DNA from: Sideroxyarcus sp.
Lineage (GTDB): Bacteria > Pseudomonadota > Gammaproteobacteria > Burkholderiales > Gallionellaceae
Length of the DNA: 35,080 nt
Direction of reading: 5' to 3'
NCBI GenBank assembly: GCA_030652215.1
Contig: JAUSBC010000011.1
Coordinates: 1-35,080, forward strand
A program made the translations under genes and the position numbers. How positions within the stretch are numbered: position 1 is the first letter of the stretch; the number at the start of each line of letters is the position of its first letter. The notes under the pieces were generated by a model. The model had not been told where the DNA came from. It saw only the letters and a list, made by a program, of their open reading frames with translations, and made no database searches. Below are positions 31,762-34,836 of this stretch, piece by piece.

Positions 31762-32073
31762 CTAGAAATCCAGCTTCTTCCCGGCTCCCGCCAGCACCAG
31801 CTCGCTTAGCTTGGCATACAGTTCGCTGCCGTCGCGCTGGCTGAACCAGCGGTCGTCCTGCCATGAAAAGTGGAAGCCGCCGGATTTGGCGGCCAGCCAG
31901 ATCTCCCGGTTGGGCACATGGCGATTGACAATGACTTTGCTGTCGTCCGCAAACTCGATTTCCATCACGCTGCCGTTGCTGTCGTAGTCGATACCCTCGT
32001 CGTTTTCGTCCAATACCTGCTCTATGTGCTCAAACACGGCATCGGCCAGCTCGTTGAATTCGTTTTCCGTCAT
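31762..32073 (-). CDS. cyaY: frataxin homologue CyaY
   Basis: Iron-binding regulator of Fe-S cluster assembly that contacts the IscS desulfurase. At 103 residues it has the normal CyaY size. I use the ATG at 32073 with AAGGAAG before it; the open frame extends upstream through the neighbouring gene's end. The first 34 residues hold 12 acidic side chains, the acidic ridge that binds iron in E. coli CyaY. The beta-sheet surface motif VNRHVPNREIWLAAKSGG with its conserved Trp is intact. It lies 13 bases downstream of the frataxin-protease fusion gene on the same strand. Confidence 0.93.
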   Translation of the reverse strand: MTENEFNELADAVFEHIEQVLDENDEGIDYDSNGSVMEIEFADDSKVIVNRHVPNREIWLAAKSGGFHFSWQDDRWFSQRDGSELYAKLSELVLAGAGKKLDF

Positions 32074-32086
32074 GTGTCTTCCTTGA

Positions 32087-33379
32087 TTAACGCCGCCCGA
32101 TCGACATGCTGCTGTCGCTTTGGCTGACTTGAAAATTGCGCAGCACATTCGCGCCGAGCAGGTTGGTTTCCAGATTCGGCATCACCGCCACGGTGATGTT
32201 CTCCAGCACGAAATTGCCCAGCGTCATGTGCGGCACCAGCGCGATGCAGCCGTTGGCCGTGCCGTTCGCGGTCTGGAACTGCATTTCCTTGCAGTTGCGT
32301 ATGCCGACCTGGCGCGCGAGTTCGCTGGAAATGGAAGTAACCGATGCGCCGGTGTCCACCATGAACGTGACGGCAATGTCGCCGATGGTGCCGGGCAGAT
32401 AGAAATGTCCGTTGGCCTGGCGCCTAACCTCCATATTGCCGTCGCCCGTAAAAGTCGGCGCGGGCAATTCGGCTTCGGAAATGTCGGATTTGATGAAAAG
32501 CTGGAAATCCGCCACGCCGCTACCGGAAGTCTGCAAGGCAAGCTGCAGCGGTTTGTTCGTTTGCACGTCCAGCGGTTTGTCGAATTTGAGCAGATGTCCC
32601 TGCGAGAAGCCTTTGCGCGGATTGCACCAGGTGTTGCCCACGCTGAACATCATGTCGTATTGCCCGACCGGCAGGCGCAAGGTCGTACTGTGCCGGGCAT
32701 GAATCAACACCGACAAAGCCGGGATCGCAGTCTGCGGGGCGGAGAGAAGTAATAGCACAGGATGCGTATGGTCGTTCTTGAGCGTGAGTTGGGGATCGTC
32801 CGGATTGTCAGTGCGCAGTCCGGGTTCGGCGAAGACATTCACGCTGCCGTTGACCGGGAAGCCGTCCTCGCATTGCAGGTTCGGGGTGTTGAGCGCGAGC
32901 GGTGCGCCGGACGGGCCAAGCGGTGCGCCCAATTTGAGTGCCGCCCAGAAACCGATCAAACCCGCCAGCGCCAAGATCAGCACGTTGCGCACGCCGTGGC
33001 TCTGCTTTGCTTCGCGGTAGGCGACGGCTTGCGGGAGCACGACCGGCTGCACTTTGGCAGCGGGCGCGCGCGCGTTGAGCGGGTTGGCGGCGATGGTCTG
33101 CTCGATGATTTCGTTCAGTCTGGCGTAGAGCTCGGTTTGGTCGTGCGCGCGCCAGGTGCCGTCGCAATGCGCGAACTCGATGCCGCCGGAGCGAGCGGCC
33201 AGCCACACGTTTTGTGTCTGCACGTCGTAATTGACGAGAATGCGTTGTCCGTCGGCGAATTCCAGGCGCAGCGCATTGCCGTTCAGGTTCTGGCGGATAT
33301 CCACGCCGCGCTCGTTCACCATGCGCTGGATGCGGGCGAACAGCGCGCTGCCCGGTTCGTTGCCTGGACTTTCCATCAT
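32087..33379 (-). CDS. fusion protein: frataxin-like domain, membrane span, retropepsin-type aspartic protease
   Basis: A 430-residue protein with an unusual order. Residues about 10-95 resemble CyaY encoded next door: ALRLEFADGQRILVNYDV, then NVWLAARSGG, aligns with MEIEFADDSKVIVNRHV and EIWLAAKSGG. A basic linker leads to a membrane span at about 131-148. A middle region (about 155-310) is unrecognised, apparently beta-rich and has three Cys. Residues about 325-425 form a retroviral-type aspartic protease domain with active site D342-T-G-A-S and the partner motif near LLGANVLRNF. Topology would put the frataxin-like part in the cytoplasm and the protease in the periplasm. The frataxin part has only 4 acidic residues in its first 34, so the iron-binding ridge is lost. 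There are two adjacent ATGs at 33379 and 33376, with GGGCGGGA upstream. Confidence 0.88.
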   Translation of the reverse strand: MMESPGNEPGSALFARIQRMVNERGVDIRQNLNGNALRLEFADGQRILVNYDVQTQNVWLAARSGGIEFAHCDGTWRAHDQTELYARLNEIIEQTIAANPLNARAPAAKVQPVVLPQAVAYREAKQSHGVRNVLILALAGLIGFWAALKLGAPLGPSGAPLALNTPNLQCEDGFPVNGSVNVFAEPGLRTDNPDDPQLTLKNDHTHPVLLLLSAPQTAIPALSVLIHARHSTTLRLPVGQYDMMFSVGNTWCNPRKGFSQGHLLKFDKPLDVQTNKPLQLALQTSGSGVADFQLFIKSDISEAELPAPTFTGDGNMEVRRQANGHFYLPGTIGDIAVTFMVDTGASVTSISSELARQVGIRNCKEMQFQTANGTANGCIALVPHMTLGNFVLENITVAVMPNLETNLLGANVLRNFQVSQSDSSMSIGRR

Positions 33380-33436: not shown

Positions 33437-33586
33437 ATGCGTACTCTTTGCATTATGTTGCTGTTGAGCATCTTCCTGCAAGGTTGCGGACGCAAAGGCC
33501 CGTTGATCTTGTCGCCTTTGCCGGTAGCCGGCACGCAGACGGCGCCCGCACAACCTTCCACCGAGAAAACCGAAAGCAAAAAGTAA
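33437..33586 (+). CDS. lptM: LptM (YifL)-type small outer-membrane lipoprotein
   Basis: A 49-residue lipoprotein. A short signal peptide ends in the lipobox L-Q-G-C with Cys17, followed by GRKGPLILSPLP, the hallmark of LptM/YifL (GCGxKGPL then Pro). The rest is a hydrophilic Pro/Thr/Lys tail. In E. coli LptM assists oxidative maturation of the LptD-LptE lipopolysaccharide translocon at the outer membrane. It lies 2 bases before lysA and divergent from the cyaY side, the common proteobacterial arrangement. Confidence 0.9.
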   Translation: MRTLCIMLLLSIFLQGCGRKGPLILSPLPVAGTQTAPAQPSTEKTESKK

Positions 33587-33588
33587 CC

Positions 33589-34836
33589 ATGACCGAATAT
33601 TTTCACTATGAGCAGGACCGGCTGTTTGCCGAAAACGTCGCGCTGGACGACATCGCGCAGCGCTTCGGCACGCCGTGCTATGTCTATTCGCGAGCCGCGC
33701 TGAGTGACGGCTACCGCCAGTTCGAGGCGGCCTTCAAGGAGCGCGAGCACCTGATCTGCTACGCGGTGAAAGCCAATTCAAATCTTGCCGTGCTCAACGT
33801 GTTTGCACGCCTGGGTGCCGGCTTCGACATCGTTTCCGGCGGCGAACTGCAACGCGTGCTGGCGGCGGGAGGTGCAGCCGGTAAAGTGGTCTTCTCCGGC
33901 GTGGGCAAGAGCAAAGCCGAGATGCGGCAGGCGCTGGAAGCCGGAATACTCTGCTTCAATGTCGAATCTCCGTCAGAACTGGAACGACTGAACGAAGTAG
34001 CAGGCAACATGGGCAAGATTGCGCCGATCAGCTTTCGCGTGAATCCCGATGTGGATGCCAAGACGCACCCCTACATCTCCACCGGACTCAAGCAGAACAA
34101 GTTCGGTGTGGCTTACACCGAAGCGCTGGCGCTGTATCGCCAGGCGGCTGGCATGCCGCATTTGCGCGTCACGGGCATGGATTGCCACATCGGCTCCCAG
34201 CTCACCGAGACCAGCCCGTTCATCGCGGCAGCGGAAAAGGTGCTGGCGCTGGTCGATCAACTGGCGGCCGAGGGCATCGTCCTGGAGCACCTCGACCTGG
34301 GCGGCGGACTCGGAATTTGCTACGACGACGAGACTCCCCCTTCCATCGCCGAATACGCGCAAGCCTTGCTGGGCGCGCTTTCCGGGCGTTCCGAGAAGAT
34401 CATCGTCGAGCCTGGCCGGGTGCTGGTCGGCAATGCCGGCGTGCTGCTCACCCGCATCGAATACCTCAAGCATGGCGAGGAAAAGAACTTCGCCATCGTC
34501 GACGCGGCGATGAACGACCTCATGCGTCCGGCACTTTACGACGCCTTCCACGCCATCCGGCCGGTACGGCAAAGTGCTGTCGAGAAGCAGCTCTACGAAG
34601 TGGTTGGTCCCATCTGCGAGACCGGCGATTTTATCGGTCATGCCCGCGAGATGGCCGTGGATAAAGGTGATGCGCTGGCCGTGATGTCCGCCGGAGCGTA
34701 TGGAATGAGCATGAGTTCGAACTACAACACCCGTCCGCGGGCAGCCGAAGTGATGGTGGACGGGAGCAAAACTCATCTTGTTCGAGAGCGCGAAACAGTC
34801 CGCCAGCTCTACGCTTCAGAGAAAATCATCTCGTGA
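33589..34836 (+). CDS. lysA: diaminopimelate decarboxylase
   Basis: PLP enzyme for the last step of lysine synthesis, meso-diaminopimelate to lysine. The start is the ATG at 33589, just after lptM; the open frame runs further upstream through lptM out of its frame. At 415 residues it is normal. The PLP lysine is K61 (CYAVKANSN). Other landmarks are DCHIGSQLTE, the EPGRVLVGNAG stretch and CETGDFIG carrying the active-site Cys of the partner subunit. No classical terminator follows; a 12-base palindrome ATTTCGCGAAAT lies at 34841-34852. Confidence 0.95.
   Translation: MTEYFHYEQDRLFAENVALDDIAQRFGTPCYVYSRAALSDGYRQFEAAFKEREHLICYAVKANSNLAVLNVFARLGAGFDIVSGGELQRVLAAGGAAGKVVFSGVGKSKAEMRQALEAGILCFNVESPSELERLNEVAGNMGKIAPISFRVNPDVDAKTHPYISTGLKQNKFGVAYTEALALYRQAAGMPHLRVTGMDCHIGSQLTETSPFIAAAEKVLALVDQLAAEGIVLEHLDLGGGLGICYDDETPPSIAEYAQALLGALSGRSEKIIVEPGRVLVGNAGVLLTRIEYLKHGEEKNFAIVDAAMNDLMRPALYDAFHAIRPVRQSAVEKQLYEVVGPICETGDFIGHAREMAVDKGDALAVMSAGAYGMSMSSNYNTRPRAAEVMVDGSKTHLVRERETVRQLYASEKIIS

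Follow-up and report, generated by a model that had tools for sequence, protein, structure and literature searches.

A frataxin fold is joined in a single chain to a retropepsin-like protease in Sideroxyarcus sp. and its close relatives. In the stretch of DNA that we analysed (35,080 nucleotides, hereafter the window), a gene just upstream of cyaY encodes a frataxin-fold domain, a probable transmembrane span, an uncharacterised domain with two invariant cysteines and a clan AA protease domain. This anatomy is well supported, and the architecture is new both for membrane-anchored clan AA proteases and for frataxin. How such a protein would act we infer from its parts: our best explanation, to which we give not quite an even chance, is that cyaY was duplicated and fused and that the copy was re-specified as a cytoplasmic docking or dimerisation domain controlling a periplasmic protease. 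No earlier description of a frataxin-protease fusion was found among the matches listed from the open-licence PMC literature, which agrees with the first-pass annotation of this DNA, where none was named; searches of the same literature returned no paper on CyaY in Sideroxydans or on frataxin in Gallionella.

Anatomy and topology of the fusion protein

The open reading frame is exact in the coordinates and strand first assigned to it (Table 1). At its N-terminus, the Pfam profile PF01491 (Frataxin_Cyay) matches residues 15-96 with an E-value of 4.3e-9 (36.9 bits against a cut-off of 21.3), and it is found at E 0.01 or better in all 29 fusion orthologues. The NCBIfam equivalog TIGR03421 (FeS_CyaY) barely misses the fusion, with 53.2 bits against a cut-off of 53.25. 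Because this score falls just below the cut-off whereas the neighbouring CyaY reaches 118.5 bits, the fused domain is, judged by its sequence, related to CyaY yet no orthodox CyaY. The two domains of the window share 38% identity, and a profile of fused domains (12 of 29) aligned in hhalign with a CyaY profile (7 of 41) over 93 columns with a probability of 99.8% and an E-value of 2.8e-28; a control against a protease profile gave a probability of 0.1%. A medium-confidence model of the N-domain (pLDDT 66.5, built from four sequences) runs helix, five strands, helix, and its top five PDB matches in Foldseek are frataxins, with modest TM-scores of 0.39-0.51; the full-length model (pLDDT 37.8) was not usable. 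The first-pass annotation had proposed a frataxin-like N-terminal domain and suggested checking it by structure prediction and profile comparison, and both point to frataxin, in line with PF01491. The sequence motifs that it listed as shared with CyaY are present, except that in the last of them the spacing from Trp to ELYA is one residue shorter in the fusion. CyaY ends at about the juxtamembrane motif (residues 98-106) of the fusion protein, in which N102 is found in 29/29 fusion orthologues in our alignment.

The C-terminal domain, recognised at first by its DTGAS retropepsin motif, is matched above cut-off by PF13975 (gag-asp_proteas, Pfam; residues 329-415) and by the NCBIfam model TIGR02281 (clan_AA_DTGA; 71.9 bits against 57.95), and in a profile search it finds the Rickettsia protease APRc (5c9b) at E 4.6e-16. 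By sequence, the N-terminus has its closest solved relative in CyaY of B. cenocepacia and the C-terminus in APRc of Rickettsia. Between span and protease lies a fourth element (residues 168-305) that had been overlooked when the protein was described as a single span followed by a protease; the span itself, at ~129-149, is probable by hydropathy. This middle domain has no Pfam match and no convincing match among PDB profiles (top E 1.5). A domain of this kind, of ~135 residues with two invariant cysteines, precedes clan AA proteases in several lineages.

Table 1. Features of the fusion gene and its neighbours in the window
Feature	Position	Strand	Basis and remarks
Fusion gene	32087..33379	(-)	430 aa; ATG at 33379; stop included; ORF list
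Frataxin-fold domain, residues 12-96	33092..33346	(-)	PF01491; hhalign against CyaY; Foldseek
Juxtamembrane motif S-N-P-x-N-x-R, residues 98-106	33062..33088	(-)	Directly past the frataxin fold
Probable transmembrane span, residues ~129-149	32933..32995	(-)	Hydropathy; helix in a low-confidence model
Uncharacterised, putatively extracytoplasmic domain, residues 168-305	32465..32878	(-)	Invariant C170 and C252
Clan AA retropepsin-like domain, residues 314-430	32090..32440	(-)	PF13975, TIGR02281; invariant C363 and C378
Catalytic motif D342-T-G-A, residues 342-345	32345..32356	(-)	Sequence; orthologue alignment
cyaY, ordinary frataxin	31762..32073	(-)	13 nt past the fusion's stop; TIGR03421 118.5 bits
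lptM-like lipoprotein gene, divergent	33437..33586	(+)	PF13627 26.0 bits, just below the cut-off of 27.3
lysA-like gene	33589..34836	(+)	ORF list; presumably diaminopimelate decarboxylase, named from its translation

Hydropathy peaks at the proposed span in 15/29 orthologues, at ~205-235 in 13/29, and at neither of the two in L031. A second span at ~205-235 would place the protease in the cytoplasm; we set this candidate aside as the less probable reading, since the aligned stretch is polar in the frataxin-less relatives L052 and L055, and we read it as strands rather than as a span. Four cysteines, C170, C252, C363 and C378, are invariant in 29/29 and all lie in the C-terminal half, and the same four are found in the aligned relatives of two alignments (26 rows, 22 of them fused, and 15 rows, 10 of them fused). 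Because the invariant cysteines lie only C-terminally, and because L055 starts with a stretch resembling a signal peptide, the N-terminus is probably cytoplasmic and the protease periplasmic. To this extent the topology first proposed is probable; the iron-sensing step that had been attached to it found no support, as described below.

Distribution, locus and origin

Full-length fusion genes are present in 29 of the 158 genomes of the family (Gallionellaceae), the window's included, namely in 26 of the 34 genomes of the window's genus (g1) and in three of genus g8; three of the genomes carrying them are single contigs (G050, G057 and G069). Three further g1 genomes (G091, G099 and G107) hold the 3' end of the gene alone, at a contig edge. 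No fusion was found at the intact cyaY-lptM-lysA locus of G097 and G111, and no frataxin whatever was detected in G105, G109 and G113, whose genomes are 63 to 73% complete. Beyond the family, no other frataxin fusion appeared among the best matches listed from 300 genomes of the order, nor at E 1e-30 in 369 genomes of the class and 398 of the phylum, the three samples overlapping.

Directly after the fusion and on the same strand, cyaY follows in 26/29 genomes; the gap between the two genes measures -14 to 15 nt at 25 loci and 105 nt at one. The 105-nt gap, in L014, holds an inverted repeat built on GTGCGAATTTATTCGCAC, by eye possibly a REP-like element. A promoter scan returned one promoter-like site at the start of the fusion, with 0.6 expected by chance, and we give it no weight. 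The divergent lptM-lysA flank was seen at the four loci inspected (the window, L036, L049 and L050). At seven loci of other genera cyaY adjoins lysA without the fusion, lptM being undetected in four of the seven; five of the seven also share the gmhB, plsC and YgjP-like genes with the window. In G073 (L036 6505-7926, minus strand) a DUF4139 gene (PF13598) stands between fusion and cyaY on the same strand. In G043 and G079 the fusion is found at a different locus from the cyaY-lysA region, beside genes that we take from their translations to resemble gph, ubiG, gyrA and serC.

In a tree of the frataxin domains, which has few columns and a midpoint root only, a single branch (support 100/99) parts the 29 fused domains from 41 CyaY; among the fused domains, the G073 copy splits off first. 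These sequences are read most simply as an old fusion of single origin. The copies of G079 (L021) and G043 (L023) cluster with the g1 members L015 and L019, at 100/99 in one tree and 82/60 in another, and this grouping suggests that the fusion was transferred into g8. The remainder of the protein is also found without frataxin: L052-L054 consist of a short tail, a hydrophobic stretch, the middle domain and the protease, L055 has a start that by eye resembles a signal peptide, followed by middle domain and protease, and L085 and L086, each from a genome of another class, begin with a hydrophobic segment, ahead of the middle domain and a DSGA protease. On this comparison the middle-protease module exists independently of frataxin, which argues that a cyaY copy was fused to a pre-existing extracytoplasmic module.

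We estimated dN/dS for 178 pairs with dS under 1.2 and give figures for the 40 closest. In these, the value for the frataxin part is mostly 0.1-0.4, with a maximum of 0.72 (L014/L017), that for the protease part is 0.03-0.48, and the linker reaches up to 1.09. Of all the domains the protease varies least, with a mean pairwise identity of 0.73. D342 is present in 29/29 orthologues and D-T-G in 26/29; the motif is lost in L016, L017 and L018 (VDPDTP and LDTDSP), which retain the whole protein and form one clade (support 100/95), so that the tree indicates a single loss. Within the pair L017/L018, dN/dS is 0.093 for the frataxin part and 0.177 for the protease part. These three proteins are likely pseudoproteases, and the persistence of the clade implies that catalysis is not always the point. 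A tie between D-T-G loss and absence of SUF was considered and rejected: the three genomes without D-T-G (G050, G057 and G101) are without SufB, but so are 22/29 fusion genomes in all.

The frataxin surface and Fe-S assembly genes

We compared the 29 fused domains site by site with 41 CyaY (48 before removal of seven duplicate rows). Because all of these sequences are related, a count at a site does not stand for as many separate changes. Over the part that corresponds to E. coli residues 1-33, the fused domains have a mean of 4.3 acidic residues (3-7) against 9.3 (7-12) in CyaY and a net charge of -1.1 (n=29) against -7.9 (n=41); mean pI is 5.9 against 4.45. The IscS-contact sites of E. coli CyaY include, in the part of PMC5176006 drawn on here, D11, E18, D22, D31 and E33, and their equivalents are acidic in 41/41, 38/41, 41/41, 41/41 and 31/41 CyaY, respectively, but in only 7/29, 4/29, 7/29, 1/29 and 2/29 fused domains. 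R53, present in 41/41 CyaY, occurs in 0/29 fused domains. Against this trend, 25/29 fused domains keep an acidic residue at the position of D29, and 25/29 have Glu at that of D3. Other positions invariant in CyaY (41/41) are replaced: E40 by Arg or Lys in 26/29, H54 by Asp in 26/29 and H70 by Glu in 29/29; Q47 (E. coli numbering) is fixed in 29/29 fused domains. W61, which the same part of PMC5176006 links with IscU contact in E. coli CyaY, is present in 41/41 CyaY and 29/29 fused domains, and core residues are kept too. Proposed iron sites of E. coli CyaY include E19, E44 and H58 (PMC5607177, in part); the equivalents are absent already from many CyaY of this set, and because they are so often missing locally we regard the ridge as a whole as the fairer measure. 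By this measure most of the iron/IscS acidic surface of the fused domain is gone, while the core and the exposed Trp of the sheet are retained. The first-pass annotation had cited the acidic ridge as the means by which the domain could sense iron; that ridge is mostly absent from the fused domains, and most IscS-contact residues are replaced.

Gene content bears on the same question. We examined 19 genomes of g8: 16 gave no frataxin match, G073 carries CyaY as well as the fusion, and the fusion was the sole frataxin detected in G043 (100% complete) and in G079 (85%). IscU was tested in 12 genomes, of which seven belong to the 29 with the fusion. It scored above cut-off in 5/12, namely G073 and four genomes of g1; the other 7/12, G043 and G079 included, gave weak IscU matches only, at 40-49 bits. 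A desulfurase above the IscS cut-off was present in 12/12, and in G043 and G079 it clears that cut-off by ~1 bit and lies <8 kb from sufB. SufB is found in 7/29 fusion genomes, and the fusion is retained in genomes with ISC, with both ISC and SUF, and with SUF but IscU below cut-off. As G043 and G079 keep the fusion although no CyaY was detected in them and their IscU matches stay below cut-off, regulation of ISC cannot, on this gene content, be its general function. Five g8 genomes without a frataxin match (G008, G026, G033, G058 and G067) have IscU below cut-off and SufB present, and theirs seems to be a lineage that has exchanged ISC for SUF. The iscS of the window adjoins iscU, and the usual CyaY docking site on its product looks intact because the KPRVR arginines are there. 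Given the loss of the ridge and of R53, and given G043 and G079, the domain is unlikely to be a canonical sensor of iron or a regulator of ISC, and both its sequence and the gene content largely contradict the iron-sensor reading.

Mechanism and competing explanations

Each chain of a retropepsin supplies a single catalytic Asp, and the active form is a homodimer. RloA proteases are described as dimers whose interface holds the active site (PMC12239564, in part), and APRc as cross-linking as dimers (PMC4140852, in part). In the explanation that we favour, a duplicate of cyaY would have fused in frame with an already existing periplasmic module, either membrane-anchored or secreted, of two-cysteine and retropepsin domains, giving a product that would sit in the inner membrane with its frataxin fold in the cytoplasm and its protease in the periplasm. 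The fused frataxin would have shed most of its iron/IscS acidic surface, retained its core and fixed new residues, and it could serve as a docking or dimerisation handle that joins two chains on meeting a cytoplasmic partner, in general not the ISC machinery. Pairing or placement of the chains via the re-specified surface would then set periplasmic proteolysis. A related claim, that this is the first transmembrane frataxin, a paralogue without most of the iron/IscS surface that acts as a cytoplasmic control domain and signals outside Fe-S assembly, we advance tentatively, as somewhat less than evenly probable. Both stay short of an even chance because the case for the topology is built on hydropathy, where a second stretch competes with the proposed span. 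We also count against our explanation the adjacency of cyaY in 26/29, which would equally fit a link to CyaY or ISC, the persisting acids at the D29 and D3 equivalents, and the 85% completeness of G079.

The frataxin part might instead be a passive cap that brought a new promoter and a stable N-terminus to an old periplasmic protease and is kept for folding or expression alone. L052-L054 do with a short N-terminal tail, and the partner of the frataxin part is so far not known, both of which would suit such a role; purifying selection on the domain in most of the 40 closest pairs and the newly fixed E70 and Q47 (both 29/29, E. coli numbering) indicate a specific surface, however, and we consider this rather unlikely, though to be taken seriously. 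The clade that keeps the protein without D-T-G, at the low L017/L018 dN/dS values given above, would be at home with a scaffold that holds a cytoplasmic protein at the membrane or envelope, its protease activity dispensable, but D-T-G is retained in 26/29 and no other domain is as well conserved as the protease, which makes this improbable.

A sensor of iron or Fe-S status, its frataxin domain binding iron or IscS/IscU and signalling across the membrane to the protease, draws on the fold itself, on the position closely upstream of cyaY in 26/29, on the IscU-linked W61 kept in 29/29 (PMC5176006, in part) and on a lineage related to iron oxidisers such as Sideroxydans. Against it stand the mostly lost ridge, the loss of R53 in 29/29, and G043 and G079, which keep the fusion without detected CyaY and with IscU below cut-off; we think it quite improbable. 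The window's genome is a draft of 128 contigs, and the first-pass annotation had allowed for a join between two separate genes; such a join, or a decaying pseudogene, has practically no probability and is refuted by full-length orthologues in 29 genomes, three of them single-contig, in whose frames there are no internal stops and for which dN/dS is mostly well under 1.

The fusion shares its fold, its core and the exposed Trp61 with CyaY/frataxin (PF01491, TIGR03421; E. coli 1ew4, B. cenocepacia 4jpd), but it is without most of the acidic ridge and R53, has H54 and H70 replaced, and bears a span and a protease. Rickettsia APRc is similar in its membrane-linked N-terminus and outward-facing retropepsin domain, both predicted; in contrast to the fusion, three spans are predicted and outer-membrane accumulation is reported (PMC4140852, in part), and no middle domain is visible in the alignment. 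The Pseudomonas RloA proteins are periplasmic retropepsin-like proteases with DTG plus Ala, dimeric and with a disulfide, a likeness taken from their description only; unlike the fusion they have a signal peptide and an operon with RloB and RloC, and the part of PMC12239564 drawn on here describes no cytoplasmic domain. The nearest functional analogue is SpoIIGA of B. subtilis, a signal-transducing membrane aspartic protease, and PerP of Caulobacter is a regulated bacterial aspartic protease (both PMC4140852, in part). Within our own set, L052-L055, L085 and L086 share the middle domain and protease; where the fusion has frataxin, they have either a short tail and a span or a start resembling a signal peptide. 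Neither SpoIIGA nor PerP is known to carry a frataxin domain. Work on frataxin has dealt almost exclusively with its part in Fe-S assembly, as a helper that binds iron.

If the explanation that we favour is true, the capacities of the frataxin fold would be separable from those of its acidic ridge, in a lineage that has retained the fold without most of the iron/IscS surface, and has done so even where neither CyaY nor IscU was detected, and the little-studied bacterial retropepsins would gain a cytoplasm-to-periplasm control device, in relatives of iron oxidisers.
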